A DNA stretch of 64,000 nucleotides. Origin: a virus. Every line of letters begins with the position of its first letter. Positions within the stretch are counted from its first letter, which is position 1. Under the pieces are notes generated by a model. It worked only from the letters and a program-made list of their open reading frames with translations, had not been told where the DNA came from and made no database searches. The stretch is from the IMG/VR virus record IMGVR_UViG_3300006738_000004, positions 1-64,000 of that record, one strand, 5' to 3'. Made by a program: the position numbers and the translations under genes. Of the stretch, positions 8,467 through 28,228 are shown piece after piece.

Positions 8467-11400
8467 TGGGAGTTGGAGATCGACCATATGCAGGTGGCTG
8501 GAAGCAAAACCAGAACTCGGTAGTACGCCACACTCCTGATGCGAGGGTTTTCTTCAACGGGATGCTCACGCTTCCAGGGTGCCCTGCCTGTCACGGCTCC
8601 GTTGATGTTCAGAAGTACATCACAGGCGTGTCGGTGGACACCAGTGTGGAACCGGTGGCGAACTGCACGATTTCCATGTCAGTCCCGCGATTCGCTTCCG
8701 ATGTCTTTGGGCAGGACGGCTCTTTCATCATCACCCCAGGCATTGAAGTCGTGGTTTACATGCGGGGTTATTTTCCGATAGCGGGTGGTGCTGTTACTCC
8801 TGGTTGGGCTGAGGGGGTAGTTGAGGGGGAGATCAACACCAACGAGGTGGTTGCTTACCCTTACTATCAGGTCTTTCGCGGAATCGTTATCGAGGCGTCC
8901 CATGACTACAACGGGGGGATGTACAACGCTTCTTTGACCTGTGCGGACTTCTTGCATTTTTGGCAGAATCTCCAACTGGCGACCAACGGCGCTGTGTTGC
9001 AGAACTCCACTAACGATTCGAGCATCCAGGGCTACATGACGGGGCACCGCTTCACCAGGATGAACCCCTACGCCATCATCTACACGCTTTTCAAGGTTGG
9101 GTATGGCTCCACTGGGGGTGCAGATTACATCATGTCGGGGAAAACGAACCATGACGCTACTGCTTGGAAGGGTGAATCAGGCACGCAGTTGAACAAGCTC
9201 GCTGCGTTGAACATGGAGAGGATCCTGGCTTCGCATCAGATGAGCCTGAAGATGTTTGCAATGGACGGCACTCTTTACAGTGCCATGGAGATGGCTTTTA
9301 TCGGCACTTTCCATGACGACCAGAGCCAGGGCAGTCAGCTTTGGGAGAACGCGGGTGCCGACCATGGGACGGTGACAGGTCGGATGCTTGAGTTCCTGCG
9401 GAAGTACGGCTTCAACAGCGCGGCTGCCAACGCTCAGCTTCTGGATAGTAATGAGGGGGGTGATGCGGCTTACCTCAACATCCTGAAGCAAAATGCGTTC
9501 ATGATGGACATTGGCGCACTGGGCGCACTCAATCTTTGGGAAACGGAGTACATGACCAAGTTGGAGATTGGGGCTGCTGTCACCGACATCACAGGCTTCG
9601 AGTTGTACATGGACGTGGACGGGGACATTGTCTTCAAGCCTCCCTTTTGGAATATGGACACCTCTTCCGATCCGACGTACCGCATCGAGAACCGGGACCT
9701 GATTAGCCTGTCCCAGGCTTCCCGAGAACCGGAAGCAACCTACGTCAAAGTGACGGGCACTCACTTCAACGCTCAGGGAACAGGTACGGACGGTTGGGTG
9801 GCTCCTGGAGCCACCTACATCGACTACCGTTTGGTGGGGATGTTTGGGTGGCGGGAGCACAGCTTTGAGGCTGGGTACCTCTCAAGTGCCAAGCAGATGT
9901 ACATATCTGCCATTGCCCGGTTGGATGTCATCAATGTGGGGACACATACTTGTAGCGCCACGATCCCGATCCGTCCTGAGCTTCGTCCCGGATACCCCGT
10001 GTACATCACGGAAGCCCAATGCTTTTACTACATCCAATCCTTGAGCCACCAGTTCCAGTTTGGAGGTCAATGCACGACCACCATCAACGGGACAGCGCGT
10101 CGAGGTAAGTTCCATCCTCCAGGGACACCCCCGAAAGACCGTCCAGTCGCAATCTCAGACATTCGGCTCGACCGCCCAGACTTGCCAGCACTTCCCATTC
10201 TCGCAAGCGGTCAGGGAGGAGAGACGGCATCTCAGACGTTCGAGGCCCGCACCGTTGGGTTTCCTAACGTAGTGATGGCCTTGGACCCATCGCAGCAAAA
10301 CATACAGGGTTGGATTACAGATCCTTTCACCCAGCTTGAGTTGGGAGGGGACCAATCCGTGTGGGCCGAGAAGGCTGTTATTGAGTGGCTTCTTACCAAG
10401 GGGTACATAGAGGCAGACCCTGAAAACGCCCCCTCCACTGACCTCCACGTCGTCAGAACCGAAGGGCCGTGGAAGTTCCGCACGAGCAACACCGACTGGC
10501 AGACGATAAGGAAGGCTGAGATCACCGAGGGGTACGCAGCATACGCGGCGGCTGGTCAGGCGTTGTCTAAAGCACGGGAGGGTGACAACAGAACCGGCTA
10601 CGCGAACGCGCAGCGCATGTACATCGAGGCGATTTCAGGGCCATTCGGAACCTTGATAGGGGCTATCAAGAAGGACGACCTCAACAAGGATGAGGCCCTC
10701 AGAAACTGGATTGCTCTGTTAGAAACCCAGAAAGCCCGTTGGGCACCGAAAGCGGAAGGCCGTTACCGCTACTACTCAAGCTCACACCCGGACCCGGCGC
10801 ACCAAGGTCCAGACCTGATTCGGTGGGACAAGCTCGGTGGGACGATGAACCTCGAAACGCCCAGGTCCCCGGAGTCAAGCGGGAAGCTTCATATCCTCAA
10901 GGATGGGGGGACGGCCTACCCGCTGGTCGAGGAAATATCAGCATCAGATGTGGAAAGAGGGCTTACCGTTATGGCCCTGGATTCTGACGGGGAAGAGGCG
11001 ACACAGGCCATCATCCTGACCTCAGAACTCCACTTCGTGAACTTTTGTTATCACACCGCAATACCAAACCCTACCCGGCTCGTGGGAGCCAAGGGGCAAG
11101 ACTATCTGGCTGGGTTTTTCATAGACACTGGGCGTCTCGAATGGTGGGTGAGGGTTATTCGTGTGAATGGCCCAAACGCCCAAGCCGCCGAGAACAACCC
11201 CAAAGCATGGTTCTACGGGGATTCCGGGGACCCCCAGACTGGCTTTGATTCTCTCAAGCCTGCTGATGGGGTCATTGGTGCCCTCTTCGGGCTTATGGCT
11301 GAAGCAGGCAAGCAGATGAAGACCCCGTCGGGGAAAAACGCATGGGAATCTATAAAAGAGGGCGCTCCTTCTGGCGCAAGGTCGATAAAACAAGACGTGG

Positions 11401-13094
11401 AGACTTTCTTTAGTGCTGAAACTGGGTTTATGGGTTTATGCGGGGAGGAGGACCTAAACCCCAACTTCACATTGATGGCGCAGTACAACGCCTGTATGAA
11501 GTGGACGCCAGATAAAACTGACGACGACTACGCGGAGTGCGTAGACCCTTCCAAGAACAGCCCCAACTGGGAGGAGGATGCGGAGATTGGCTACTACAAC
11601 TGCGGGTGTGTGTTTGTATCCGGTCTGAAGGGTGATCTGGTGGTGGACCTTCGTGGCACTGGGTTGGAGTGTGAAGACCGGAGCATGGTAGACGCCAACA
11701 GGTGGGGGTTCCCTGTCACCGGGTGGTGGGTGGAGCCTCACAACCACGGCGGCGGGAACGCCCAGAACTGGTACAGCAGAAAGTTTGCGTACTACGTCCA
11801 GACGGCGTGGGATGCTTTGGGTAGGCGCTACATGGACTTGCTGAAGGCTGAGGGGATGAAGAACGACACTTCCTGGGAGCATCCTGAGTTGATGAATGAT
11901 GCGTTTGATGCGAAGCAGGAGTTCTACGATCAAATCGAGGAGAACTTTGGGGGTGATGATTTTGAGATCGGCCAGGGCATCCCCGACTTTGCTGCTCGGC
12001 AGGTGATGATTCGCTACGCCTCCGATGAGCAGCTTCGGGAGGAAGAGCCTGCGAGGCTTGTCCCAAGCCCGGTTTTTCCCGTTTCAGACAACGAGGGGTT
12101 TGAGGTGATTGGGTCCCAGGCTTACGGTCGCGGACTCAATGTTCTTCTCTACTCGGACCTTGTGGCGGCAACGGGCTTTGACTCCTCACGGGTGGTTGTT
12201 GGGAACGGCGACACGGGATCTCAAGCGTCTTTTCAAGCCGCCGAGGAGTTCCTGTGGACCTTTGCCACACAAAGTCGCCAAGACCCTGCGGCTGCGCTGT
12301 CAGCCATGAAGAACAAGGATGCGAGCACCTGGGCGAATGCGTCGATGGCGTTGGGGGTAGCGGGTGTCGATGTGCCCATGGAAAGTTGGACGCTCGACCA
12401 CTACACTGCCGGGATCAAACCGGCGACCACAGTCTCTGCGGTCACACAAGTGTTGGGAAAGACTGAGAGGGCCTTGTCCAACCACTCGACCGATTCTGAT
12501 GGGGCGTACCAGAGCCTTGTGGCAGGCAACATCCCGGTTGCGGTTGCTGAGATCACTGCGGGGGCTGAAAACGTATGTGCTTGTCGAGGGTTCCAGGGGG
12601 AGATTTACATGGCGATGTTGCAGGATTCGACTGGTTTGGCGCTCGCCTCTGAAGGGCCTATGCACCTGAGTGAGGATTTGGATGCGGATGCACTCATAGC
12701 CCAAGCGTCGAAACTTGAGGCTTGGTGGATGTCAAAGGATGCTTTGGCGGGCCGTCACTTGGATACGGAGAGGACCAACATCGCAACGATGATCTCAGAC
12801 ACCTTTGGGGCAGGAGGCCAGTACGACACGATGATGGGGATTTCGGAGGAGACTGGGTTGAGGGCGGGTGCAGTGGAGGCAAAGGAAAGGTACCACCAGT
12901 TGAAGATCGAGATCGAGGCTACAGCACGGGATATAGCCACAGGTGCTGTCTTTCAGGAACCCGAGGATGTGGTCCAGGAGGAGGGTGTCATCGCTACCAC
13001 TGAAGGGGAAAGCGGAGGCCCCCCTATGCCCGGACCTCCCGACTTGACCTACGGGGCGAGTTCGACTCCTGGGTATGATTTAGGGGACGACTGA
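8466..13094 (+). CDS. Baseplate hub protein (gp27/gpD-like) with long extension
   Basis: 1542 residues. The first 550 residues look like a tail hub: a start with FFNGMLTLPGCPAC, then beta strands on the pattern GVSVDT...NCTISMSVPRF, FRGIVIEASHDYNGG and SLTCADFLHFWQ, and later DVDGDIVFKPPFWNMD and RLVGMFGWREHS. These are typical of gp27/gpD-type hub proteins that bind the spike, which is the next gene. Residues 600-1542 are not part of a normal hub: they include a helix-rich zone and a Cys-rich stretch at about 990-1070 with at least six Cys. No catalytic motif for peptidoglycan cleavage was recognised. The hub call depends on the N-terminal part and the spike neighbour. Confidence 0.7.
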   Translation: MGVGDRPYAGGWKQNQNSVVRHTPDARVFFNGMLTLPGCPACHGSVDVQKYITGVSVDTSVEPVANCTISMSVPRFASDVFGQDGSFIITPGIEVVVYMRGYFPIAGGAVTPGWAEGVVEGEINTNEVVAYPYYQVFRGIVIEASHDYNGGMYNASLTCADFLHFWQNLQLATNGAVLQNSTNDSSIQGYMTGHRFTRMNPYAIIYTLFKVGYGSTGGADYIMSGKTNHDATAWKGESGTQLNKLAALNMERILASHQMSLKMFAMDGTLYSAMEMAFIGTFHDDQSQGSQLWENAGADHGTVTGRMLEFLRKYGFNSAAANAQLLDSNEGGDAAYLNILKQNAFMMDIGALGALNLWETEYMTKLEIGAAVTDITGFELYMDVDGDIVFKPPFWNMDTSSDPTYRIENRDLISLSQASREPEATYVKVTGTHFNAQGTGTDGWVAPGATYIDYRLVGMFGWREHSFEAGYLSSAKQMYISAIARLDVINVGTHTCSATIPIRPELRPGYPVYITEAQCFYYIQSLSHQFQFGGQCTTTINGTARRGKFHPPGTPPKDRPVAISDIRLDRPDLPALPILASGQGGETASQTFEARTVGFPNVVMALDPSQQNIQGWITDPFTQLELGGDQSVWAEKAVIEWLLTKGYIEADPENAPSTDLHVVRTEGPWKFRTSNTDWQTIRKAEITEGYAAYAAAGQALSKAREGDNRTGYANAQRMYIEAISGPFGTLIGAIKKDDLNKDEALRNWIALLETQKARWAPKAEGRYRYYSSSHPDPAHQGPDLIRWDKLGGTMNLETPRSPESSGKLHILKDGGTAYPLVEEISASDVERGLTVMALDSDGEEATQAIILTSELHFVNFCYHTAIPNPTRLVGAKGQDYLAGFFIDTGRLEWWVRVIRVNGPNAQAAENNPKAWFYGDSGDPQTGFDSLKPADGVIGALFGLMAEAGKQMKTPSGKNAWESIKEGAPSGARSIKQDVETFFSAETGFMGLCGEEDLNPNFTLMAQYNACMKWTPDKTDDDYAECVDPSKNSPNWEEDAEIGYYNCGCVFVSGLKGDLVVDLRGTGLECEDRSMVDANRWGFPVTGWWVEPHNHGGGNAQNWYSRKFAYYVQTAWDALGRRYMDLLKAEGMKNDTSWEHPELMNDAFDAKQEFYDQIEENFGGDDFEIGQGIPDFAARQVMIRYASDEQLREEEPARLVPSPVFPVSDNEGFEVIGSQAYGRGLNVLLYSDLVAATGFDSSRVVVGNGDTGSQASFQAAEEFLWTFATQSRQDPAAALSAMKNKDASTWANASMALGVAGVDVPMESWTLDHYTAGIKPATTVSAVTQVLGKTERALSNHSTDSDGAYQSLVAGNIPVAVAEITAGAENVCACRGFQGEIYMAMLQDSTGLALASEGPMHLSEDLDADALIAQASKLEAWWMSKDALAGRHLDTERTNIATMISDTFGAGGQYDTMMGISEETGLRAGAVEAKERYHQLKIEIEATARDIATGAVFQEPEDVVQEEGVIATTEGESGGPPMPGPPDLTYGASSTPGYDLGDD

Positions 13095-13105: not shown

Positions 13106-15571
13106 ATGGCCGGTAAAGGTAAAAAGACCACAGGGAGACGTAACCGGGGGGAGGTTCGCGGGAAGCTGACGAATCGTCGTAGGAAAAGGCTTGAAGCAGA
13201 AAGCCTGAACTACACCGCAGGGGTACTTCGGAAAGGCTACGTCGTCCTGGTGAATGCCGTGGACATGACGGTGGACATCCAGCTTGTTCAAGGTCCCAAC
13301 AACAAGCCTTACAAAGGCATCCCCATCTCATTCGGAGCGTGCGGCAGCCGTACTTTCATGGGGGTGATGCCAGAGATGAACGACCAGTGTGTGGTGGGGT
13401 TCGCTCCTGCCACCATGGCAAACACTCGGCCCTACATCGTGGCTTGGATTCCCAATGCCCCTCGCATGGGAAGGGATTGGGTTCCTGTTTCCATCCATTC
13501 CCAGGCTGAGGTGGAAAACACTGTTCGTGTCAGGAATCAAGCGGGACCTTACGCCCCCCTGATTCGGAACAAGACACCTCGTTTGAATGAGGGGAATGCT
13601 TTTGTCTCGTCCGGGCAGGGCGCGGATTTGATTCTCGATGAGTCAGCCACCTTGACAAACCGCAGGGGCAACGAGGTGATCCTGCGCGACCAGGACCAAG
13701 CATTGGTTGTCCGTAGCGTGCAGCAGTTCCATGCGGGTTCCGGTTTCCGTATCTACGGAGGCATCGTCCAAAGAGACGCCGAGCTTCTTCCCACCACACT
13801 GTTCAATGCTCACTATTGGTGGGCAGCACCGGGACAAGCTCTCACTACGGATGAGGACGTCAAGCCATCCCAGTTCCCCACGGACTACGCGACCGCAGAC
13901 ACTCTTGCACCTTCGATGCTTTTTCAGCGGCGGTCAGATGGCACCAGGGTTCACCCTGATTACGGCAACACGAGCCTTGGGTTGGACCCATACAAGCTCT
14001 TAGAGCGGGGGTTGTTCATCTCCCCCTCCGGGGTGCTGCTCGGGGGCAAGATCAGCGATGCTGTTTACGGGGGCAAGCCCGTTTACCGAGTGAGCGAGGC
14101 TTTGGGGAATGCTTTTGGAGACTCTGAAGCAGAGACGTTCACAGAATACAGGATCGAAGTAACCCACACTTCTGACGGAACGCTCCCTGTCACGGAAGAA
14201 ACCGATGGGTTTGATGCCGACCGCCTTCCTCTTAGCGGCTCTGCCCGGTTGGCTCCTACTGGAGATGATGATTCCGAGGGGCAGCCCGAGATGGACAATC
14301 CTCCTCCTGTCCCAAGCAACAACGTCCCTTTTGTAGAGATGGTGATGGGGACTTACATCGGCAACGACCCCTTCTATGGCGGGAAGGAGCTTTACGGTCT
14401 GCCCATCTGCCCTCAGCTTGTTGGCAGTGACGGGTCTAAGTCTCCAGGGTTGGTGTCTGGGGTCGGTAAGCCAGTTAGCGAGCACGCTGCTTGGATTGTG
14501 AAAGTCCAGAACCCGGAAGACCCCACCCAACCTCCTTCTTGGATGGCTATCACCAAGGGGGGAGCTTTCCGGCAGTACTTCTCTGGGAAGGGTTCACCTG
14601 GAGGCGTTGCCGTCTATGACAACAGCCAGACCGACATCTATGGGGGTGAGGGGTACACCGTCCAGGCAGGTGGGGGGAATGCCTCAATCGACCTGGAGCA
14701 TACGGACGGTTCAAATCAAGACGGCTACGGGATCACGGCCACTTCGCCCGCTGCCATCCTGCTCCATGCAGGTGCTGCGTCTACCTCCATGGATGCCACG
14801 AACGCCTCTATGGCGGGCGAAGCCGCCTCCATGGTCATCAAGTCAGACACCAACACGAGCGTTGTGAGTGCGGGTGAGGAAAAGCATAGTTGCGCCAAGT
14901 TTACGGTGACGGACTGCGACGTGATGGCACAGTCGATCACCAAGAACTGGAATGTGAACAGCGGTGGCGGCATTGGGTTTAGCGGGGCGACGGGCAAGGA
15001 GATGTGGACCGGGAGTAAAGACATCGCCTACGGGGGGAAGGGGAACAGTGACCCCACCGGGCCTCCCCCCTTGGTGGAGACTTTCAGTGCCAATGCTGCC
15101 ACAGGAATCCTTGGTGCGGCAAAAGTGCGAGAGCAGACCCTCCAGATGGGGGCGTGGGATTGCTCAGGCCCAATGGTGAGGGAGGATCACACCTACAAGG
15201 TCGGCTCCATCAACCTCAAAGGGACAGGCACCGCCGCAATGGCTGCGGGGTTTGGGACAGGGGTGCGAGTCGGATCTGGTGTGGGGTCCCAAGACAACAG
15301 CACCTCCCACAAGCCTACTGGCATCAAGACGGTCGGTTACATCGGAAACGTGACCAGCAAGGCGGTTGCGGGGGGCACCTCGTTGACGAGCACCCTGGCC
15401 GCAACTGTGAAATCTGCGGCCAAGTTTGGTGCCAGCGCCCCTTTGATTCAACTGACGTCACCGGGGGTTTTCGCTGGCGCTGTCTTGTCGGAGGGGTGCA
15501 TCGACAATCTTACCGGATCTTCATTCATCTCCAGCGGTACAGTCGGATACTCGACCTGTCGTATCGGCTAA
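13106..15571 (+). CDS. Baseplate central spike protein (gpV/gp5-like)
   Basis: 821 residues. ATG at 13106, six bases after AGGAGG. The N terminus is very basic (residues 1-35), then residues about 40-115 form an OB-fold-like block with VVLVNAVDMTVDIQLVQG, a CGSRTFMGVMPEMNDQCVV turn and RPYIVAWIP. This matches the OB domain of P2 gpV / T4 gp5 spikes that docks onto the hub. The remainder is Gly/Ser/Thr-rich beta structure, expected to form a trimeric shaft, ending in a Ser/Gly/Thr-rich segment with two Cys. It is far longer than gpV (about 210 residues) and has no recognisable lysozyme domain. Position directly after the hub supports the call. Confidence 0.75.
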   Translation: MAGKGKKTTGRRNRGEVRGKLTNRRRKRLEAESLNYTAGVLRKGYVVLVNAVDMTVDIQLVQGPNNKPYKGIPISFGACGSRTFMGVMPEMNDQCVVGFAPATMANTRPYIVAWIPNAPRMGRDWVPVSIHSQAEVENTVRVRNQAGPYAPLIRNKTPRLNEGNAFVSSGQGADLILDESATLTNRRGNEVILRDQDQALVVRSVQQFHAGSGFRIYGGIVQRDAELLPTTLFNAHYWWAAPGQALTTDEDVKPSQFPTDYATADTLAPSMLFQRRSDGTRVHPDYGNTSLGLDPYKLLERGLFISPSGVLLGGKISDAVYGGKPVYRVSEALGNAFGDSEAETFTEYRIEVTHTSDGTLPVTEETDGFDADRLPLSGSARLAPTGDDDSEGQPEMDNPPPVPSNNVPFVEMVMGTYIGNDPFYGGKELYGLPICPQLVGSDGSKSPGLVSGVGKPVSEHAAWIVKVQNPEDPTQPPSWMAITKGGAFRQYFSGKGSPGGVAVYDNSQTDIYGGEGYTVQAGGGNASIDLEHTDGSNQDGYGITATSPAAILLHAGAASTSMDATNASMAGEAASMVIKSDTNTSVVSAGEEKHSCAKFTVTDCDVMAQSITKNWNVNSGGGIGFSGATGKEMWTGSKDIAYGGKGNSDPTGPPPLVETFSANAATGILGAAKVREQTLQMGAWDCSGPMVREDHTYKVGSINLKGTGTAAMAAGFGTGVRVGSGVGSQDNSTSHKPTGIKTVGYIGNVTSKAVAGGTSLTSTLAATVKSAAKFGASAPLIQLTSPGVFAGAVLSEGCIDNLTGSSFISSGTVGYSTCRIG

Positions 15572-15600: not shown

Positions 15601-16173
15601 ATGGCTGTTACCGGTAAGGCTGTTTCGATGGCCATCATTGCAGCGGGGCCTAAGCTCGTAGGCCCTACTTGGCTCAAGGTGGCAGATGCCGTTGGGGTTT
15701 CGGTAGCCCAGTGGCTCAAAGCAGCAGGGGTACGAACTACTGGAGCTACCGCAGGCGTTGCAGGAGGAGGCACCGTAACCGGCAAGGTTGGCGTGGCTCC
15801 GATGGCGTTGCCTGGGACGATCCAAGCGGCTGGCTTGGTTGGAATCACCGGAGGCCAAATCGCCACTGCTGTTGGTATGGGGTTCTCGTCTGCTTTCAAC
15901 GCCAGCAACCAGTTCACGGGCGTCTCTACTGGGGTGGGGATTGGGGTGGAGGTCGTTACCAAGGTCACGGCGGCTAATGCTGGCTCTCTCATCACGATTC
16001 TCACGGGCAACCTCGCCGCCAAGAAGATCACTGGCTTGAACGCGGCCAAACTTGCCGCTGGGATCGGCAACGGTATTGCCGCTATTGCTTTGACTGGAGT
16101 GGGTGCAGGCGTAGCGGCGGGGTCTCCCTCCCCTGTGCCTGCGACGGGTACAAGCAAGTCCGTGGTGGTGTGA
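15601..16173 (+). CDS. Small Gly/Ala-rich baseplate protein, unrecognised
   Basis: 190 residues, almost entirely small and hydrophobic (Ala, Gly, Val, Ile, Thr) with few charges. It starts MAVTGKAVSMAIIAAG, contains a short helical segment PTWLKVADAVG, and then long Gly/Ala/Val runs (VGIGVEVVTKV) that could pack as amphipathic helices or insert in a membrane. It sits between the spike and the giant protein, with GGAG five bases before ATG and only three bases before the next start. A spike-tip, spike-chaperone or membrane-interacting injection role is conceivable from place and composition, but I do not recognise the family. Confidence 0.7.
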   Translation: MAVTGKAVSMAIIAAGPKLVGPTWLKVADAVGVSVAQWLKAAGVRTTGATAGVAGGGTVTGKVGVAPMALPGTIQAAGLVGITGGQIATAVGMGFSSAFNASNQFTGVSTGVGIGVEVVTKVTAANAGSLITILTGNLAAKKITGLNAAKLAAGIGNGIAAIALTGVGAGVAAGSPSPVPATGTSKSVVV

Positions 16174-16176
16174 GAG

Positions 16177-19100
16177 ATGGGTCTTGAGATCGACGGTTAT
16201 GTGCTTCGACCTGCGCGAAGTGCCCCTGCTAATGCCATTACGACTGGCGAGGCGGTCACTGGTGTTGACCGCACGCATGTCGATTTTGAGATGCCGTCGA
16301 ACTACGGCTACTACCTTTCTGTTGCTCAACGGCCAGTAGCTCCTTTTGCAGACCAGTATCGTTCTGCTGTGCTTCTGCGCCCTGAAGCAGGGAAGGAGGA
16401 GTTCCTGGTTTGGGCGGCCAACACGAGCAACTTCTCAGTCCTCGCAGAAGACACGGAGTTTGGGCTGTGGGATGTGCTTGGAGACCCTGATTTCGTCACT
16501 GCTTCAGCAGGAAGTCTGGAGGCAACCAACCTCATTGAGCCTCTTGAGCCTTACGCCGACGGCACCGACAAGCTGATCGTTGCGGATGAGTACCAACGCA
16601 GCCTGTATGAAGTGGACGCCGTGGTCATCAGGCGGGGTGACCTTCCCCTTGTTCCCTATGGGATAGGGGACAAGGCAGTTCTCTTCAACCCTGATGGCGT
16701 CAACTTCTCGGGCGGCATTGCTGAGCAAAACCCGGTCACAGGGGCGATTACCCTTAGCGATGCTGCTGGCAACATTCTGGAGGCTTTGGGAGGGGGGTTT
16801 TCCGTAGCCCGTGGGGACACGGTCACGTTTGTAGCCTACCGCCTTGCCCCTCCTACCTTTTGGTGGACCAAGAATGAACCAAACCTCACTCGCTTCGGGT
16901 GGAACGGCAAGGTGAGCCGCTGGGAGCCTCTGAAGGGGAGCCTCCCGCAGCATCTGGGGAAGGTAAAGGAAGACGAGACTTACCAGCTTTTCCCTCGCCC
17001 TGTCCGATTCGAGGCGGGGAGTGAGCTTCCCCATATCGTCGGCCTCGCGGATTCTTACGCCCTGGTACGAGTGGGTCTGGCGTTTGATGCAGGGTCCGAC
17101 AACCCCACTGTTGCCGTTGTCGCGGATGCCGCCATCGAAACCGGGCCGGACTGGGTGACCTTGGGGACTGACGCAGCCGTAGGCCAGAAGAACGGCGTCC
17201 TTATCTTCTCACCGGACTACATCGAGACCTACGGGGGCCTGGATGTCTGGTATTCCCCCGAGGACTTCACGCCTTCCAACGACGGGGACCTTGGGGCACT
17301 TCGGGAAGCGGCCACGTCTGACATCGCCTTGTCTCCGATTCCAGGACCGACTGACAGACCGCTCTTGAGGCTTGGGTTCCGGCAACACCTTGAGCCGATC
17401 ATGCGCCTCGATGATTCAGGACTCAACGTGGCGGGTGCCATATCATCCGGGTACTTCGAGTGGTCCATGACCACCGGCAAGGTTGTCTTCAGTCAGGTGG
17501 ACATCGACAAGGCGACCCCAGGTGAGGGGGGCTACGAGCTTTCCTACTTGGGAGCACGGGTCTACTACGACGGCATTGCCATGTCGATGCAGCCTGTCCC
17601 TCTCAAGGCCCCTGTTGCATGTCAGAACCTCGGCGGGACCGAGATGACAGGGGAGACACCGGTCGAGGGCATCCCTTCTGACGGCCCCTTGTTTCTTCCT
17701 CTTGCCGATCCGTTTCCGTTTCCGGGGACTTCTGGGGTGCGGTGGGTTCCCGATGAGACTGGAACAATCCCCAAGATCCACCCTTTGGTCCCTGCCCCTG
17801 ACACGCGTCCAAATGAGTCGGGGTTGATGCGTGAAGTAGAAGGGATTGGTGACTCGTTTTTCTTCTGTGGCAAGCAGGCTTGGGAGTTCACCAAGGTCAT
17901 GGAGTACTGGAGTGACCTGACGCCACTCCATATTGCGGTGCCCTTTTTGAGGGCTGAGGTGTCGAGACAGCGGGCCTCCCCCTCCCCCGCATCGAACACG
18001 ATGTCCAAGGTTCAGATCAAGCGGGCGATGTTTGTGGGGGAGCCATTTTACTTCGTCCAGGCAGAGATCCTCCCCGCGATTTACAGCGATGAGAAGAGTG
18101 GTGCGAGGCTCTGGTCTCGTGTTCGAGAGCCGTTCATCTTTGCCGACGGCGACGAGAAGATGCGGTTCTCTCTCAACAACACCACGGAGGTGATTTGGGA
18201 CAACGCTGATGCTGGATATGGGCTGGGGGCCGGGGAGTTCTCCGCAGAACTGGTCGTGGCCTCCCTCGAAGCAGCTATCTTGGCTGCTGGTGCATCCGGT
18301 ACCCACTTTGAGGTGACGGCATTCCGGGGTCGGGTGTCCATTGAAGGTAAGGGTACTTCTGCCACCGATCCTTCAGTAGAGATCAGTTGGCTCGACACGA
18401 AGGTTCATGTGGGGGACCTTCGAGGGAACGCAGCCTTGGGGTTCCTTCCTGCTTGGCGTGTTGATTTCACCAAGGATCAAGTTTGGCAGCCGGATAACGG
18501 GATGGCTTTCGGGCTTCACCGCAGCCCTGAGAACTTTGCCCGTAAGAACTCCAGGCCCGATACCAGGGCCGTCCATAGATTCGGCGGTAAGACAGGCAAG
18601 ATTCTCACGAAGAACCTTCCAGCGACCCCCTTCTACAACATCATGAACCACCCTTTGGTGGATCTTCCCGGCTTCGATGAGGACGTTCATTTCCAGAGGA
18701 CGGAAGGACTGTTCGTCCGAGAGTTGAAGAACTACGATGGCATCTACTACGAGTTTGCAGATGACCGTGTCCAGTGGGTGGATGTAGCCGAGACGTCGTC
18801 TGATCGAATCCTGTCCCCGACTAACCAGCTTTCGCTGGCAGCCCTCTACGCTCTTCCTGACACGCTGTCCTCTGCGGCTATGGAGCCGATTGATTCAGGC
18901 TACGGCCTCTATCTGAAAGAGCCTGCGGGCATTTACACTGAGCAGGTGTGGAAGGAGGATTTCCTTCTCCCAGGCGAGGGTAGCGCAGGCCAAGCTCTCC
19001 TGATTGATGTCATCGGGGTGCAGATTGTTGAAGGGGGTGCAGGGAAGTTTGTTGCGGGCACCACGACCTTCGAGGACAACAATATCTCGGACTGGTCCGA

Positions 19101-22100
19101 CCTCGTTCAGGTTCCTGAGGGTCCTCCTGAAGCAGGCTATTTGCTCCATGTCCTCAATGGGGACGCAGAGGGCATCTACACTGTGGTCTCGGTGGGGACG
19201 GGCGCAAGTGCGAACAAGCTCCTCATATCTCCTGCTTTTCCTGCGGCTGCTGGCCCGGATGAAGGGGAGGCATACGTTCAATGGAAGCTGTACCACGGGT
19301 ACACGCGGGAGGTGTACGACCCTGCGGTAGTTGCTGATGTCGTTCTCGATGTCTTCAACCATCTCCCAGAGGAGCCATTTGAGATCAAGGTCCTGACCTC
19401 GATGGGGACCATTGAGCATCCTTTGGGCTACACCGCTGAGATAGGGAAAGCCCGTGAAAATGATCGTCTGATTTGGCTCCGCTTTGGCTTGGAGGGTGGT
19501 GAGGTAGTGCCTCGCTACCTGGAGACCGGGGAGGAGATAGGCCCCATCGCTGAATCAGGGCTGGTAATCCCGGACCTGACTGACCCGTTCTTCATCAACG
19601 AAGACTTCGCCATCCGTGTGGAAGGGCGAAAGTTCACGACGGACTTTCCCGCAAGCGGGGACGGTTTGCTTGTAGTTACCCCGGCTGCTTTGATTACCCC
19701 CATTCCAGGGGATGGGGTGTTCGTCTGCGGGGCTACGGGAACTGACCCTGGAATCATCCAGTTCGGGGAAGACACCCTGAGCGAGAACGATGGGGCCATG
19801 ATCTACTACGATCAGGTGCTTCCTGCGGTTGCGCCAGCCGGGGAAGCGTTCATTGACCCCACCACAGGTGATGCGGTCATCTCCGCTAATGCGGCCACCG
19901 AGTTTCAGGGCGAAGAGCTTTACTTCGTTGAGCAGATGATCACTGAGAATCGTCTTGATGTTCGGCTTAGCCCGATAGGAGGGTCCCTTTTCTTCCAAGC
20001 CCCGCTTCGGGAATATCAGATTGTGGAGTCTCACTACTTCCAGGCTGATACCGATGGAGACAAGCTCGTTGAGACAGATGACGATGGAGTAGATAGCTTC
20101 GTGGAAGTAACGGAGTTCCTGCCCCTCTATGTCCAGTTGGAGGAGGCCACTCGGGTAGACGACAACACCTTCACGTTCAACCCGACAGGCAGAACGATTG
20201 CCGAAGAAACGGAACCCATGATTTGGGCTGGAGTAGAGCTTCAGAACTACCGGGGGTTCGTGACCGCTACGGTGAGTGGAAGCACCATCACTTTTGAGGA
20301 GGCGGTTGACGAGGACGACGTAGTGAAAATCAACTACGGCGTGTACGAGGCGTTCGGCGGCGAGATGGCCTACGAAGTCTCGAAGAAGCCTGTCTACCGC
20401 CCTCCTTTCATGATTGATTCAGGGGTGAGCGACTTCACTCTCGTCGGGGACCGCACAGATGTGCTTCAGGTAGGGCAGCTTTTCGTCTTGGCTGAGCAGC
20501 CGTTCTACATCCAGGATGTCAGCTACAGCCATAGTACAGAAGAGACAACGGTCACGATTTGGCCTCCCACCGTAACGAAGGTAGGGACGCGCTCCCCTGG
20601 AAACGACGGCGGGGTTCTTATCACCATTGATCCGGTGGCTGTGGTGATTGACCCTGCGGGGGGTGCCATTTCAGGCGGTGGCTACGAGGGGTTCATGATG
20701 ACCCTCCTGCTCCCGGACGGCGTCACTGAAGTCCCCTACTTGGAGGTAGACAAGTTCGCCACTGAGATCATCTTCCAGGGGGACTGGAGGGAGTACATGC
20801 GGGCAGGCCACCTGCTCGAAGTCGGCGGCTACCCGATCATCTTGATTTCTTCGACTCTGTCTGAGGACGGAAGGTACACCATCGCGTCTTTCGGCACACC
20901 CATCCCAAAGAAGATGGTGTACGGCACGGATGGCGTTCGCATTTCCGTGCGCCCCGTGTACGGCCCCCTTCCTTACCAGTTCACAGGCGTGGCCCCTTTC
21001 ATTGAGCGGGAGGACTATGCGTTGTTCTTGCTGGGGTCAGTTGATTCAAGCGGGCAGGAGTTGCCTGGAAAGGTCCTGAGAGAGGGCACCCACTACATGG
21101 CTGACCCGGAAACCGGGGACATCGCCCTCATGCTTCCAGAACAGAAGGCTCTCAAGGGAGGGGAGCGGCTTCTGTTCCAGTACATCCAAGGGAAGGTCAT
21201 CCATCCGATTATCGAAGATGAAGCCATCATCGCCCCTGCTTTCAAGTCAAAGCACCTTGCGATGGCTATCCCCTCAGCGGAAAACGCCATGTTGGGGGCT
21301 ACCTTCCTTGCCAAGTACGTCTTCAGGAACCCTGATTCGTTCTACGCCCAGACCATTCCAGTTGAGGAGTACTTGCCTGAGGTCCAGGAATCGGCTGTGG
21401 AGAAGGTCCAGAACTCGGGACCTTCCACAGGAGGTCCCCCTGAAGCATTCCCCGGTGACCCTGACATCCAGAAGCAGGGGATTCTTGGCCTCCGAGGCGA
21501 AGTGCATGATCTGTACGACCTGGACCGAGGAGGGCGGCTCTATCTTTCCTTCTACAACAACGTGGTTGTTGCCTTCGAGCAGATCCTGGAGAACATCGAC
21601 GGAAGAATCATTGGGGACCGGGACGGCAAGTTCAAGTTCTTCGTTGGGCGCGGGGTTCGGTATGCCTTCCGGGGGTACGAGGACGAGATTACTGGGTTCC
21701 TCAACCCGCGTCTGATTTGGCGGGATTTGATCGAGACCTGGGCCGCAGGACTTGGCGACGGCTACTACACCGAGGAAGACTCCCTTTACTTGCCTCCTAC
21801 TGCGTTTCCCTTTGACCTTACCGGGACTTTGTATCCCAACAAGACTGCTGGGTTACCGCCTGACCCGTTTGGGTTGGGGTTCTTCATGGCGCGGCAGAGG
21901 TTCCGCGTCAAGAACGACATGGACGACATCCTCATGGTTGGGATGAAGGCCGTCTTGTCGGTCAACCTCTTCCCGCCTTTCCCTGCTGTTGAACTCAAGC
22001 CGAAGTTCGAGAAGATGTGGGAGAAGAACCTCTTTTCTCGCCTTTATCCCCAGCGCACGAAAGCCTTTACGCGCTTGCTTCCAGGGCTTGAAGCAAACTC

Positions 22101-25100
22101 AGAGTTGCAGATTCCTGGAGAGTACGCCTTCTCCAGGATGACGCCGCAGTTCGGGCCGTTGCCGGGGGTGGTGACCCCCAAGATCACCAGCACCTTTGCT
22201 ACCAACATCGGGCCGATTGCCAACCCTGCCTTGGGGCAGATCACCGGAATCGTGTCGGTCCTTCCGAGGAATCGGCTTCCTCGTGCCCGCATCTGGGCCT
22301 ACTACCCAGAGGGGGACGCAAAGCTGGACCAAGCCATTGCGGATGCGGGAATCACGGCCACAGCGACGGTTGGCACCGCCACCCTGATTTGCACGCCGTT
22401 GGACTTTGTGGATTTTCCCATTGATAGCGAGACAGGGTTCCCTGACTTCATGCAGCTTGCCTCACTGCTTGACGGTGGCGTGTACGACCTTGCTTCCGGT
22501 AACTTGGAGTTGTCCACCCCTGGCTTCGAGGCAGGCCAGATGGTGCAGTACGGCCAGCCCACGGGAGACACCTGGAGCCTCTTCGACACAAGCCTCACCT
22601 TCCCGACGGTCTTTGGGCTTACCCCTCCCTCTCCGATCCCAGGGCCTGTGTTCGTGAAGGAGGTGATTGCTGGGGCTGTCATCACTCTCGGAAAGCAGGA
22701 CGGCACCCAGCTTATCGGGTCTGACATTCAGAAGAGCGATGAGACCTCTTTCGAGGCCGAGTACGGAGACACCATCTTCATTGGCTCGAAGCTGCCATTG
22801 GACGAAGCAGGAGGTTCGTCCAATGACCCCCCTGCTATGGAAGAGGTGGCCTTGGCCGCCGCTGCGTTGCCGGACTACCGCATGGGCCATGACTTGGCAG
22901 TTGGGCGGTTGAGGGGTGTCTACCGGGACATGACCTTCCCTTCAATGAAGGACTTCTTCGCCTTCCCGCTCAAGGAAATGACGGGACAGCAGCCGCCCGC
23001 GCCTCTTTCATGCCTTGAATCAGATGTGACCTTCATCAACACCAGGGACACTCCGGTTGAGCTTCCCTGTCTGAAGGGAGAACCACGGGATGATTCAGGG
23101 GATGTGCAAATCCCCTTCATGTCCACCACACTGACGGAGCTTTCGGTCTTGTACGAGGTGGCCCAGAGCTTGGAGTTCTTCGCCAACGCTGAGACTCCTT
23201 TTGACCTCCTCGCACTTCCAGGCATCCCTACTTTGGTGCCTCCAGGTCTCCCGAATCAGTACTGGAACTCGATCTACCCGGACGAGATTCTGCTCATGGA
23301 TGGGTCAATCCTCGCAGAGACCGATTCTGGGACGAATCGTGACGCTGGCAACTTGTACACGGAGCACGATCTCCAGCCTGTCAGCGCCATGGTTCCCTAC
23401 GTCGATGGCTCCCTCGTCGGCTCGTTGCGGGCTTATGATCTTGTTTTCGTGGAATGCCCAGATGATGGAGGGGCCGGAACTCCTCAGGACTCCTCAGGAC
23501 TCCCCGCAGGCTCGCAGGGAATCCTGACTGTCGGCACCGTTGATCATGGTGACTGGATTTCTAACGGCATCACGAGCTTTGCCCCTCCCCGCTTTATAGC
23601 CAGGACACGGCCTACTACCCCGGCCACCTCAACTGAACCCTTGCATAAGTACTATGCCCGGAACACCTACGGCTTCAATGAGGGTTGGGACGCCGGGACC
23701 AGCAGCGCCACCAGAGGGTGTGAGTTTACCGAGACTTTCGGCGGGGGCGTCTGGCAGATCGAGTTCAACTTCTCGTCGGCATGGCTGCACGATCCGGCAA
23801 ACCGGTACATCCTCGATGATGGGAGCAACACGCCTTGGGCAGCATGGCCAGCAGGAACGACGGGAGGGCTTCGGGAACTCATGTTGGGGCCTTGGCACCG
23901 CCACTTCCCCCCAAACCACTACACCAATGCCGTAACCCTCACCCTTTACCAACCAGATCCTGACCATGTGGGTGACCCCACCATTTGTAAGCTGACTTTC
24001 AGGTCCATTGAGCCTCCCGGTACCTATTCCCTTTGGATACCCGGACTCGGTGCTATCCCCTTGTTCTTGGCTGGCCTTGGTTGGGATATTGACGGCTCCT
24101 TCAAGATGCGGTTTGAGTCATCTAACTCTCTTATCGCTGCAACTACCGCCTCCCCTGCTGGCGGGCTGTCGGACGGGGAAAGATACGACTTCAACATCAA
24201 CATCGACACCTACATGACCAATGAGACGAGGAACTACATCTCGTCTCCACCTGCGGTTGGCTCCAACCACGGAAGTCATGGGGCCTATGTAAAGTTCGAC
24301 CGCCTGACGTTTGAGGAAGAGGTCTCTTTTGCTACCGCACTCCCACGGCAGACGCGACCCGCTAATGGTTGGGCGGCTGTGGATATGGGGATCCAACTCA
24401 ACGTCATCCAGTCCGTTGTGGGAGCGCCTGGAGTCAGGGCAGCGACTTGGGTGAATCATATTTCAGAGATCAATGGGGGGAAACGCCTTCAGTTCCGGGA
24501 GCGTTTCGGCACGCCGCGCCCGGACATCCTCCCTGCTGCAACCTTGCCTTACGTCGGACAGTTCATAGGGGGTGGGTCTGGGATAGGCCGCATCAAGACG
24601 ATGCCCTTCGAGTGGGACAACGAGTCCATCGTGGAGCAAGCAGGGGAAACAGTCCTCGACAACATCCTGTTGTCAGCGGCTCCTTCGTCTGACTTGGGGT
24701 TCAACGAGTCTCCGTCAGGCACGGGGAGCTACCAGCTTCTGATGGCCCACGGGACAATGTGGGATTGGGATCATGACACGGACCCCGCCACCTACATTGG
24801 TGCTCGCTTCTACATCACCGGGGTTAGTGGCGCGGTTGCCCCTATGGAGGGGGCTGTTGGAGAGGTGGAGCCTGGAGACATTGTTGTAGTTGGAGGACAG
24901 TACGACGCCGTCACCAACAGAACCTACGGGGCTGTCAAAGCAGGCACCTACTTGGTTCGCCATGCCGTAGAGCCTGATGTCGTTGATGCAGGGACGCCTT
25001 CCCTGCGGGGCCTCAACGCCAAGGTGAGCGGGGGGGATGATGGCTGGCTCAACCTGACCTTCCCTACCGTGAAGTCAGTGAACTACGACTATGATGCTGG

Positions 25101-27951
25101 GACGTTTGACATCACGATTGATGGGCTGTTGCCCGAGGTGTACGGAAGTGACAGCGGGCACACCTTCGAGATTCCTACTCCTGGCAACACACGACCCATC
25201 TACTTCATCTTCAACACCTCTTACGCAACCCAGAACGTAGCACAATGGGACATCGAGGAGGATTGCGTGTGGGCAGCGATGTACACGGACATCACTGTCG
25301 ATGCGGACGGCAACCATGTCTTTGAGTTGTCCATCAGTGATTCCCCTGAGAACGCCCAAGGAGACGTGCTGGCTTCAGGATCTCCTGAACCGGCCTTCGA
25401 TATGCTGGCAGCGGCCTTGGCCCAGGGAACGCGCATCTCAGGGATGACATGCCTCCCCATCGGGTCAATGGGGACATACCAGGACGGCAACGGGGTTTAC
25501 CGGGACCTCCCGGACAACAACCTGATTGGAGCCAATAAAGACTGGATGATGGATAACTGCTGTGCGGGCTTCAGGTTCCTCACCATACGGAACAACAACG
25601 CACCCGCTGACCCTACGAACACTAACTTTTCCAACGAGGGGCGGCTTTGGCTGTGGGATAGCGATGTTGCGGTCACATACAACACCTTCAGAGAGAGTGC
25701 ATCAGCCGCCAACTATGAGATTGGAGTCAGGGTTCCTACCCCCGTGAACCCGACAGAGTTCCAGCTTGACCAGAAGGCCCCTGTTTACTGGAAAAACAGG
25801 CTCTCCTCGATAGAGATCGAAGGGGTCCCTACTTTCATAGACATCAGCCACATCGGAAACGATAACACTGCCCCAAGCACACAGCCGCCCACTGGTTGGG
25901 ACGGCTCCGACCAGTGGAATCAGATCAACTTCGACCTGAGGATGGGGATGAGTGTGAACGCTGCGTATGCGTATGACCACAACCTGACTTGCATCCTTCC
26001 CGGCACTACCTTCTGGCTCGGCAACAACCTCGACAGCACGGCTTATCAGGACAGAGGGTTTTCCACGGTGGGGGGCATCATGCTGGAGCCTTCCTTCCCT
26101 CGAACCGGGGTGAACTTGCTCTCGGCCTTTCCTCATGTTGTGGATGCTGACCACACGCTGGAGGACGAGATGGTTGGGTCCCGCAACTATGATGACTTCA
26201 CGGGGGGTGGGATCAACTTCGAGCAAGTCTTTTTCTATGTGCGCCGAATCAGACGCTGGCACGACATCCAGGACAATCTGGCCCTGGACATCCAGAAGCT
26301 CAAGAAGGTGTACGAGATCCGGCGTGGGCGGCTACCTGCGGGCGGCTATGCACCACTCACGCGGATTTACACTGCTGACACCACAGTTCCTGGCTACGAC
26401 GGCAAGGCCACCAATGTCGGGGATTTCGATGACCCGGATGTGAACATCAACCCAGGTGACTTCCTACGGGTGATCGATAACGACGGCACCGTCCTGGAGA
26501 GGGTGGAAATCGAGAGCGTGCTCTCCTCGAACCAGTTGGTCATCAAGTTTCCAGGACTCGATGGGGGAGCGTTGCCGGGAAGCGTGAATGCGGGGGCCTA
26601 CTTCGAGATTTACCTCCAGCAGGCCCCAGTGCCCCACGAGCAGTCCAATGAGCAGTTGCTGACCTACCTGACGGATGAGGTCATCCACGAGCGCAAGGTT
26701 GAGTACAACCCGGTCAACCCGGACACCGACGGCGGTTTCGTAGACCTCAACAACACCTTGAGAGATACGGACGTGTCAGGGGCCGGGGCTTGGGCGGCCC
26801 TTGGAGTTGAGAAGGACGACATCCTCATCATTGACCCAGCGGGTCGAGATCCGTTGGGCATCCACAATAGCGGGGACCCACGCAACGCTCTTTACCTGGA
26901 CACGGAACGCGGAACGCGGCCTTTTGGAGACAGGGGCATCGTTGAGCGTAGCGCAGCCCTGCCAGACTCCTATGAAGTGGGAGGCCCCACGCCGCTGGAC
27001 GATAACCGAGGGTTTTACCGGATTATCGGGGATGAGGATTCTTCGGTGGGTCGCCTGGAAGTGGACGGGACATGCCGTTTCGCAGGTGGCGGGGAGGATG
27101 CTTCAGACAGCATCGTCTTTGGGACCATTCCTGAGGAGAACGGCTACGTCGTGCTTCCGACGATTCACAACTCTTTGGGGCCTCCTGATCCAAGTCTCCC
27201 CGGCCAAGAGGGTCAGCAGATGCTTCGGACTACGGCATACGTTGACCTCTCGTTGCCTTCGCCTGACGACATCTCCTTCAAGGACCGCCCCTACGATGCA
27301 GTCAACCTTATCTACGACAGGTATCAGAGCATCGCCCCATTCGGATACAAGATCATCCGACCCTCCCCGGTCTTTTCGGACGAGGCCGCAGAACTCATCC
27401 TCTTCATCCGGGAGAGGATGCTCTCGTGGATGGAGGAGATTGCTGCTTGGTGGGAGCACTATCGGGGCGGCTCCTACTACATCTTCCAGCGGGATGAGCA
27501 CATTGATGACTTGGGTGACCCCAACGACCCTGAGGATGGGCTTGGCCTCATCTACAACGACTTGTTCATCGACCTTGCAGGCCAGATCCTTGTACAGCCC
27601 TTTGCCAACGTAAAGGATTGCCTTTCCGTCTTGGACCGTAGGTTCTGGATTTTGGATACGAGGCTGGACAGCGAACCGACAGGCGGCGGCCCTTTCCCGT
27701 CTTATCCCTTCTACTCCACGCTGATTGACGGGGAGGGTCGTCCTGTTGAGGTGGACTTGATCGCTGATGTCCTGGACAACGACGACGATTTCCGTGGCGT
27801 CCGGTACGCCTGGATTCAGTTCCGTGCTGATTGGGGGGATGGCTCCATTCAGATGGCTCAGCGGGCCGCAGACCGCTTGGACCGTAAGCTCCTGAAGGAG
27901 AAGCTGCTGGTTGCGAAGCGAAAGGCCATGGGGAAGCTAAAGAGTAGTTGA
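16177..27951 (+). CDS. Giant virion structural protein (3924 residues)
   Basis: One uninterrupted frame of 11.8 kb, predicted near 420 kDa. It is acidic, beta-rich and Pro/Gly/Asp-rich throughout, with no signal peptide or clear membrane segment. Residues about 645-760 form a hook-like module (HFEVTAFRGRVSIEGKG, then ALGFLPAW) found in divergent form in other proteins of the window. Around residues 1780-1860 is a helical segment with NIDGRIIGDRDGKFKFF and an FLNPRLIWRDLIETW stretch. The C-terminal 170 residues are helical (MEEIAAWWEHYRGGSYYIF) and end in a Lys/Arg-rich tail. The gene lies inside the baseplate block between spike and wedge genes, so a peripheral baseplate or large tail-surface role is inferred. 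The start at 16177 is three bases after the previous stop. Confidence 0.85.
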   Translation: MGLEIDGYVLRPARSAPANAITTGEAVTGVDRTHVDFEMPSNYGYYLSVAQRPVAPFADQYRSAVLLRPEAGKEEFLVWAANTSNFSVLAEDTEFGLWDVLGDPDFVTASAGSLEATNLIEPLEPYADGTDKLIVADEYQRSLYEVDAVVIRRGDLPLVPYGIGDKAVLFNPDGVNFSGGIAEQNPVTGAITLSDAAGNILEALGGGFSVARGDTVTFVAYRLAPPTFWWTKNEPNLTRFGWNGKVSRWEPLKGSLPQHLGKVKEDETYQLFPRPVRFEAGSELPHIVGLADSYALVRVGLAFDAGSDNPTVAVVADAAIETGPDWVTLGTDAAVGQKNGVLIFSPDYIETYGGLDVWYSPEDFTPSNDGDLGALREAATSDIALSPIPGPTDRPLLRLGFRQHLEPIMRLDDSGLNVAGAISSGYFEWSMTTGKVVFSQVDIDKATPGEGGYELSYLGARVYYDGIAMSMQPVPLKAPVACQNLGGTEMTGETPVEGIPSDGPLFLPLADPFPFPGTSGVRWVPDETGTIPKIHPLVPAPDTRPNESGLMREVEGIGDSFFFCGKQAWEFTKVMEYWSDLTPLHIAVPFLRAEVSRQRASPSPASNTMSKVQIKRAMFVGEPFYFVQAEILPAIYSDEKSGARLWSRVREPFIFADGDEKMRFSLNNTTEVIWDNADAGYGLGAGEFSAELVVASLEAAILAAGASGTHFEVTAFRGRVSIEGKGTSATDPSVEISWLDTKVHVGDLRGNAALGFLPAWRVDFTKDQVWQPDNGMAFGLHRSPENFARKNSRPDTRAVHRFGGKTGKILTKNLPATPFYNIMNHPLVDLPGFDEDVHFQRTEGLFVRELKNYDGIYYEFADDRVQWVDVAETSSDRILSPTNQLSLAALYALPDTLSSAAMEPIDSGYGLYLKEPAGIYTEQVWKEDFLLPGEGSAGQALLIDVIGVQIVEGGAGKFVAGTTTFEDNNISDWSDLVQVPEGPPEAGYLLHVLNGDAEGIYTVVSVGTGASANKLLISPAFPAAAGPDEGEAYVQWKLYHGYTREVYDPAVVADVVLDVFNHLPEEPFEIKVLTSMGTIEHPLGYTAEIGKARENDRLIWLRFGLEGGEVVPRYLETGEEIGPIAESGLVIPDLTDPFFINEDFAIRVEGRKFTTDFPASGDGLLVVTPAALITPIPGDGVFVCGATGTDPGIIQFGEDTLSENDGAMIYYDQVLPAVAPAGEAFIDPTTGDAVISANAATEFQGEELYFVEQMITENRLDVRLSPIGGSLFFQAPLREYQIVESHYFQADTDGDKLVETDDDGVDSFVEVTEFLPLYVQLEEATRVDDNTFTFNPTGRTIAEETEPMIWAGVELQNYRGFVTATVSGSTITFEEAVDEDDVVKINYGVYEAFGGEMAYEVSKKPVYRPPFMIDSGVSDFTLVGDRTDVLQVGQLFVLAEQPFYIQDVSYSHSTEETTVTIWPPTVTKVGTRSPGNDGGVLITIDPVAVVIDPAGGAISGGGYEGFMMTLLLPDGVTEVPYLEVDKFATEIIFQGDWREYMRAGHLLEVGGYPIILISSTLSEDGRYTIASFGTPIPKKMVYGTDGVRISVRPVYGPLPYQFTGVAPFIEREDYALFLLGSVDSSGQELPGKVLREGTHYMADPETGDIALMLPEQKALKGGERLLFQYIQGKVIHPIIEDEAIIAPAFKSKHLAMAIPSAENAMLGATFLAKYVFRNPDSFYAQTIPVEEYLPEVQESAVEKVQNSGPSTGGPPEAFPGDPDIQKQGILGLRGEVHDLYDLDRGGRLYLSFYNNVVVAFEQILENIDGRIIGDRDGKFKFFVGRGVRYAFRGYEDEITGFLNPRLIWRDLIETWAAGLGDGYYTEEDSLYLPPTAFPFDLTGTLYPNKTAGLPPDPFGLGFFMARQRFRVKNDMDDILMVGMKAVLSVNLFPPFPAVELKPKFEKMWEKNLFSRLYPQRTKAFTRLLPGLEANSELQIPGEYAFSRMTPQFGPLPGVVTPKITSTFATNIGPIANPALGQITGIVSVLPRNRLPRARIWAYYPEGDAKLDQAIADAGITATATVGTATLICTPLDFVDFPIDSETGFPDFMQLASLLDGGVYDLASGNLELSTPGFEAGQMVQYGQPTGDTWSLFDTSLTFPTVFGLTPPSPIPGPVFVKEVIAGAVITLGKQDGTQLIGSDIQKSDETSFEAEYGDTIFIGSKLPLDEAGGSSNDPPAMEEVALAAAALPDYRMGHDLAVGRLRGVYRDMTFPSMKDFFAFPLKEMTGQQPPAPLSCLESDVTFINTRDTPVELPCLKGEPRDDSGDVQIPFMSTTLTELSVLYEVAQSLEFFANAETPFDLLALPGIPTLVPPGLPNQYWNSIYPDEILLMDGSILAETDSGTNRDAGNLYTEHDLQPVSAMVPYVDGSLVGSLRAYDLVFVECPDDGGAGTPQDSSGLPAGSQGILTVGTVDHGDWISNGITSFAPPRFIARTRPTTPATSTEPLHKYYARNTYGFNEGWDAGTSSATRGCEFTETFGGGVWQIEFNFSSAWLHDPANRYILDDGSNTPWAAWPAGTTGGLRELMLGPWHRHFPPNHYTNAVTLTLYQPDPDHVGDPTICKLTFRSIEPPGTYSLWIPGLGAIPLFLAGLGWDIDGSFKMRFESSNSLIAATTASPAGGLSDGERYDFNINIDTYMTNETRNYISSPPAVGSNHGSHGAYVKFDRLTFEEEVSFATALPRQTRPANGWAAVDMGIQLNVIQSVVGAPGVRAATWVNHISEINGGKRLQFRERFGTPRPDILPAATLPYVGQFIGGGSGIGRIKTMPFEWDNESIVEQAGETVLDNILLSAAPSSDLGFNESPSGTGSYQLLMAHGTMWDWDHDTDPATYIGARFYITGVSGAVAPMEGAVGEVEPGDIVVVGGQYDAVTNRTYGAVKAGTYLVRHAVEPDVVDAGTPSLRGLNAKVSGGDDGWLNLTFPTVKSVNYDYDAGTFDITIDGLLPEVYGSDSGHTFEIPTPGNTRPIYFIFNTSYATQNVAQWDIEEDCVWAAMYTDITVDADGNHVFELSISDSPENAQGDVLASGSPEPAFDMLAAALAQGTRISGMTCLPIGSMGTYQDGNGVYRDLPDNNLIGANKDWMMDNCCAGFRFLTIRNNNAPADPTNTNFSNEGRLWLWDSDVAVTYNTFRESASAANYEIGVRVPTPVNPTEFQLDQKAPVYWKNRLSSIEIEGVPTFIDISHIGNDNTAPSTQPPTGWDGSDQWNQINFDLRMGMSVNAAYAYDHNLTCILPGTTFWLGNNLDSTAYQDRGFSTVGGIMLEPSFPRTGVNLLSAFPHVVDADHTLEDEMVGSRNYDDFTGGGINFEQVFFYVRRIRRWHDIQDNLALDIQKLKKVYEIRRGRLPAGGYAPLTRIYTADTTVPGYDGKATNVGDFDDPDVNINPGDFLRVIDNDGTVLERVEIESVLSSNQLVIKFPGLDGGALPGSVNAGAYFEIYLQQAPVPHEQSNEQLLTYLTDEVIHERKVEYNPVNPDTDGGFVDLNNTLRDTDVSGAGAWAALGVEKDDILIIDPAGRDPLGIHNSGDPRNALYLDTERGTRPFGDRGIVERSAALPDSYEVGGPTPLDDNRGFYRIIGDEDSSVGRLEVDGTCRFAGGGEDASDSIVFGTIPEENGYVVLPTIHNSLGPPDPSLPGQEGQQMLRTTAYVDLSLPSPDDISFKDRPYDAVNLIYDRYQSIAPFGYKIIRPSPVFSDEAAELILFIRERMLSWMEEIAAWWEHYRGGSYYIFQRDEHIDDLGDPNDPEDGLGLIYNDLFIDLAGQILVQPFANVKDCLSVLDRRFWILDTRLDSEPTGGGPFPSYPFYSTLIDGEGRPVEVDLIADVLDNDDDFRGVRYAWIQFRADWGDGSIQMAQRAADRLDRKLLKEKLLVAKRKAMGKLKSS

Positions 27952-27991: not shown

Positions 27992-28228
27992 ATGTCTGTT
28001 GAAGATGAGATTCGCCGTATAAAGGAAAAGCTGCACAGTCGGGGAGTTCCTACAGGTTCGTGGGTTGATGTCGAAGAGAAAGATGTTGTGAGTCCCACCC
28101 TGGAACGACAGAAGGAAGCTCTGGGGAAGGTGTCCGAGCTTCTTGAGAGGCAAATCGAAGATGACCAGAAGCAGATTGCCCAGCTACATGTCGCGCTCCA
28201 ACGACTGAAGCACGGCGGTGGGGCGTGA
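27992..28228 (+). CDS. Small coiled-coil protein, unrecognised
   Basis: 78 residues, ATG at 27992 six bases after AGGAG (27981-27985). It is predicted all-helical with heptad-like spacing in the second half (LGKVSELLERQIEDDQKQIA), rich in Glu, Lys, Gln and Leu, ending in GGGA. It lies three bases before the next gene, in the baseplate block. A trimerising or bundling structural peptide, or an assembly factor, would fit. The function is unknown. Confidence 0.7.
   Translation: MSVEDEIRRIKEKLHSRGVPTGSWVDVEEKDVVSPTLERQKEALGKVSELLERQIEDDQKQIAQLHVALQRLKHGGGA

Follow-up and report, generated by a model that had tools for sequence, protein, structure and literature searches.

Positions 16177..27951 of a 64-kb stretch of viral DNA (the window, which is the first 64 kb of the 100,935-bp virus record IMGVR_UViG_3300006738_000004) encode a single 3,924-residue protein, here called the giant, which we consider to be a core component, structural and probably scaffold-like, of an enlarged baseplate on a contractile tail, with a probability of about 0.6. 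We infer its presence in the virion, and likewise its location, position, copy number and mechanical role. Between pairs of relatives, the segments of the giant diverge in step with the hub, spike, gp25, gp6 and 896-aa genes (r ~0.64-0.92), as would be expected of a core component and not of an exchanged module, and this co-divergence, together with synteny and a module shared with a wedge protein, favours a built-in structural role in the baseplate.

The giant reading frame and its family

The ATG of the giant gene lies three bases past the stop of a 190-aa gene, and from there the frame has no internal stop over 3,924 codons, with no N in the 64-kb window. A 3,924-aa giant frame is also present in L001, another assembly of this virus with 99.93% identity to the window over 27.3 kb, and 51 homologues are likewise intact, which bears out the preliminary description of one uninterrupted frame. 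The window and L001 differ at 19 sites in total, with 15 inside the giant gene, and ten of the 19 fall within a 1.4-kb part of it (16307-17667), six of these within 35 bases. In L004 the frame is kept at ~60-63% protein identity to the window, with a dN of ~0.32 and saturated dS, which indicates strong purifying selection on the giant gene.

Using iterated IMG/VR searches, which returned 44 loci and then the best 79 of 134 confirmed stretches, we found the whole giant gene at at least 91 loci, 51 of them distinct, and gathered more than 80 related contigs of up to 485 kb. The protein is 3,444-4,164 aa long (median 3,686) and is a single frame in all 51 non-redundant full-length members, and exactly one copy was present in each of the 20 records counted (101-485 kb). 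It is conserved collinearly over its full length, with no domain gained or lost among relatives, and residues 1801-1860 and 3721-3900 are among the least variable stretches.

Searching Pfam, PHROGs and PDB sequences with either the protein or family profiles gave no match to the giant. Among 50,697 phage records the only homologue was in LR745208.1 (IMG/VR 3300025030_000038), an unannotated, uncultured metagenomic phage of 485 kb with a full-length giant of 3,642 aa, and no isolated phage in that collection carries one. A first scan of genome contigs detected no homologue, while a second found family members on three MAG-binned contigs (L131, L132 and L133), from bins labelled Terriglobia, uncultured bacterium and Altiarchaeales; these are probably phage contigs, and the bins are weak hints of a host. 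A literature search on giant baseplate proteins in jumbo phages found none and, going by the literature searched, the family appears to be previously undescribed. Huge phages are reported to encode predicted proteins as long as 7,694 aa, some tentatively structural (Al-Shayeb et al. 2020, PMC7162821), and the giant family is not singled out in the part of that paper covered here.

Gene order and the contractile tail

The giant lies within a conserved gene order of hub, spike, 190 aa, giant, 78-aa coiled coil, 896 aa, 282 aa, gp25, gp6 and gp7-like, and the relevant genes in the window are as follows.

6381-7028: tube-initiator-like gene; the pair with 7033-8466 has one weak Pfam match
7033-8466: tube-initiator-like gene resembling 6381-7028
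8466..13094, plus strand: hub candidate, 1,542 aa, with a Tunturi_5 homologue annotated 'tail protein'
13106..15571, plus strand: spike candidate, 821 aa, with an OB-like N-terminus and repetitive C-terminus, by reading
15601..16173, plus strand: 190-aa Gly/Ala-rich hydrophobic protein, adjoining the giant in 46 of 50 relatives
16177..27951, plus strand: giant gene, 3,924 aa, one frame, start ATG
27992..28228, plus strand: 78-aa coiled-coil-like conserved ORF ending in a (R)LKHGGG-type motif
28232..30922, plus strand: 896-aa partner gene with a weak tape-measure-like match at its N-terminus
31589..32971, plus strand: gp25-like sheath initiator / wedge subunit (Pfam and PHROGs)
32978..36451, plus strand: gp6 / Baseplate_J wedge protein, 1,157 aa (Pfam and PHROGs)
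36393..37799, plus strand: gp7-position wedge protein with copies of a giant module at ~37239-37376 and ~37431-37574
50230..56067, plus strand: 1,945-aa protein in which the giant module recurs twice, more weakly

Upstream, the hub candidate has a profile match to phage G gp185 over 46 columns and the spike candidate has no family match, while the 190-aa protein is possibly a spike-tip or baseplate component. The adjacent genes at 6381-7028 and 7033-8466 show mutual sequence similarity across relatives, like tube-initiator paralogues. Downstream, at least 36 of 50 relatives have the 78-aa ORF with its HGGG-type end in the interval separating the giant from the 896-aa gene, and an 896-aa homologue follows the giant in 49 of the 50. 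The exception is L012, where the region downstream of the giant instead holds homologues of window genes 39291, 40870 and 50230. Baseplate_J was detected in 11 of 12 records, and the gp25-type and gp6/Baseplate_J-type wedge genes mark the locus as a contractile-tail (myovirus) baseplate cluster. The spike and wedge flanks given in the preliminary description therefore hold, with a candidate spike of OB/beta-helix type on one side and gp25-, gp6- and gp7-like genes on the other.

Further indication of a contractile tail comes from relatives carrying the sheath C-terminal domain PF17482, detected above the cut-off in G010 and below it in G006 and G016, with the sheath C-terminus typical on reading; because relatives carry this domain, we take the lineage to be contractile. 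No sheath gene turned up in the 101-kb fragment to which the window belongs, nor did most of the records yield one, and PF04984 was absent from the records searched for sheath. The domains lie at G010:C1:147492-147758, G006:C1:384503-384772 and G016:C1:290528-290791, in frames of ~1,677-1,800 aa that are greatly enlarged compared with the 663 aa of T4.

In LR745208 the giant, at ~30-37% identity, is followed by an 896-aa-type partner, as in the window. However, unlike in the window, these two genes lie ~20 kb from the wedge genes and on the opposite strand, which indicates that the pair is a unit of its own and that co-transcription with the wedge genes is not required. Furthermore, the gp7-like and 1,945-aa homologues of LR745208 form one frame of 1,763 aa (L008 36542-41833), whereas their window counterparts, 36393-37799 and 50230-56067, stand 12 kb apart.

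Modules and predicted structure of the giant

The following parts of the giant could be distinguished.

18109..18456, plus strand: residues 645-760, confident beta/alpha/beta unit (AlphaFold2)
19015..19161, plus strand: residues ~947-995, beta module shared with other proteins, with a weak copy at 3402-3440
20413..20976, plus strand: residues 1413-1600, one module present in two degenerate copies
23557..26076, plus strand: residues 2461-3300, fastest-evolving, length-variable region
26077..27948, plus strand: residues 3301-3924, strongly conserved end with the helical C-terminal part

No repeated unit had been obvious by eye in the preliminary description, and by eye this stands, but profile methods detect degenerate repeats. 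Profile self-comparison aligned residues 1413-1490 with 1520-1600 (E 1e-6), recovered a short motif at 180-225, 422-470 and 1223-1260, and gave a weak match of 945-1026 to 3402-3440, so that on sequence profiles the chain is built in part of decayed repeats. The ~947-995 module was also found twice in the gp7-position wedge protein, with i-E values of 2.8e-8 and 6e-4 against 0.03 at best in reversed controls, with two weaker occurrences in the 1,945-aa protein at 50230-56067.

AlphaFold2 was run with 26 and 51 relatives and gave usable models of residues 1-1200 and 2725-3924. In the first, pLDDT was mostly 75-95 over residues ~27-790 but confidence was poor at 800-946 and 1043-1127, while the second had a mean pLDDT of 77 and a pTM of 0.74. 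Segment-wise modelling had been proposed in the preliminary description, and both terminal thirds model as strings of small beta-rich domains in which short strands dominate and helix is scarce, except in the helical last ~190 residues. The one fold-like module recognised in that description, residues 645-760, is indeed predicted as a confident beta/alpha/beta unit, although no PDB fold was identified for it. Neither model had a whole-fold match in the PDB, and for the N-terminal model Foldseek found no match in PDB or BFVD at E <= 0.001. Weak local Foldseek matches were mostly to phage tail proteins (tailspikes, the phiTE baseplate, and lambda and Sf11 tail tips) or to other beta proteins. 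The sole match of the C-terminal model below E 0.001, to the Sf11 tail (3.4e-6), was rejected, having a TM of 0.06 and an rmsd of 42 over 868 columns.

Role of the giant and comparison with known systems

In T4, P2 and phage G the hub, gp25-, gp6- and gp7-type parts stand in a similar order to the window, but in none of them does anything like the giant cassette separate spike from gp25; in P2 the genes V, W, J and I follow one another with no insert, and phage G has no giant-like insert between its hub candidate and gp6. Tunturiibacter phage Tunturi_5, which of the cultured phages among the collection matches is nearest in its hub and gp6 homologues, has no giant homologue and carries several 1,000-2,000-aa proteins between its hub and gp25-type genes, where the window has one giant. 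Using hhalign, the best probability for the giant against T4 gp5-12/53 and P2 V/D/I/J was ~2%, and phage G gp184-189 and the large tail proteins of Tunturi_5 gave no profile match; homology to the tail proteins of these four phages was accordingly rejected.

The gp101 protein of Synechococcus phage Syn9, a 6,076-aa 'virion structural protein, putative fiber', is like the giant a very large protein encoded within a contractile phage's baseplate cluster, but it follows gp25 and gp6, at the position of T4 gp7, whereas the giant lies between spike and gp25. Among the best matches of giant segment HMMs gp101 was absent, and none of these was clearly better than reversed controls; we rejected homology to gp101, since no sequence or profile similarity rose above such controls. 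The earlier view that P2-type phages have nothing comparable thus applies to P2 but does not extend to contractile phages generally: giant baseplate-cluster proteins are already known in kind and, as far as sequence and profile comparison can detect, this family is not related to them.

As a core baseplate protein, the giant would string numerous small beta-rich domains along one polypeptide, with a helical part at its end. It would probably sit in several copies at the distal end of the tail between hub/spike and wedges, and would work with its cassette partners of 190 aa, 78 aa (the coiled coil) and 896 aa. Most likely it would broaden the baseplate as a scaffold and would link host contact to the gp25-gp6-gp7 wedge ring, which releases the sheath. 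The variable residues 2461-3300 would form the outward-facing part and may face the host. Against this reading, no fold-level match names a baseplate role, no isolate in the collection carries the giant, and in LR745208 the giant and 896-aa genes stand apart from the wedge genes.

We regard it as unlikely that the giant is mainly a receptor-binding organ, that is, a fibre or tip adhesin on the hub/spike with residues 2461-3300 binding the host surface. The length variation and fast evolution of its middle-to-late region fit such a role, as do weak Foldseek matches that include tailspikes and lambda gpJ-type tip proteins. However, most of the protein, including its two ends, is strongly conserved and co-diverges with the core tail genes, no domain swapping is seen even between phages at 30% identity, and even the divergence of the variable region follows that of the core (r 0.58-0.89). 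In addition, fibre and chaperone families were searched for with none detected, and fibre candidates may lie further downstream in the window. A receptor-binding role for residues 2461-3300 is possible, while a receptor-binding fibre with an exchanged C-terminal module was rejected on the conserved C-terminus and the co-divergence with the core.

Factors that assist assembly do occur in tail clusters, and the presence of the giant in the virion is itself something that we infer, but a non-virion scaffold or chaperone for an oversized baseplate is highly improbable given the size of the giant, its beta-rich domain-string architecture, the module it has in common with a wedge protein and its invariably single copy. 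A tape measure, which would be mostly alpha-helical and encoded upstream of the hub, was also rejected, as the modelled parts of the giant are rich in beta structure and its gene follows hub and spike.

Phage N4 ejects a virion RNA polymerase of 3,500 aa into its host cell. That the giant is likewise a virion-carried protein ejected into the cell, or a giant enzyme, is suggested by size alone and had been raised in the preliminary description as an injection or enzymatic machine, beside a large baseplate-surface assembly. The latter is supported by synteny, the wedge-shared module and the beta-rich models; the former we consider very doubtful, as no polymerase or enzyme family was found in Pfam, PHROGs or PDB sequences, the models of residues 1-1200 and 2725-3924 are strings of beta domains with little helix and no catalytic fold match in Foldseek, and the giant lies among baseplate genes in nearly all relatives. 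Finally, a sequencing artefact or chance open frame is refuted by a chance of ~10^-61 for a stop-free run this long at the window's base composition, by 51 distinct unbroken homologues and by the purifying selection on the gene.

Returning to the giant as a core baseplate protein, a bolder form of this reading, which we offer tentatively and think improbable as a whole, is that the many-protein peripheral baseplate apparatus of T4 is here fused into one ~4,000-residue chain, which would be an essential hallmark, passed on vertically, of a wide uncultured huge-phage lineage, with a four-gene cassette found nowhere else. The giant family is large and well-bounded, has no Pfam or PHROGs entry and no solved relative, and its gene is a specific marker for its huge-phage lineage. 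It thereby opens to testing how huge phages build and trigger unusually large tail tips.
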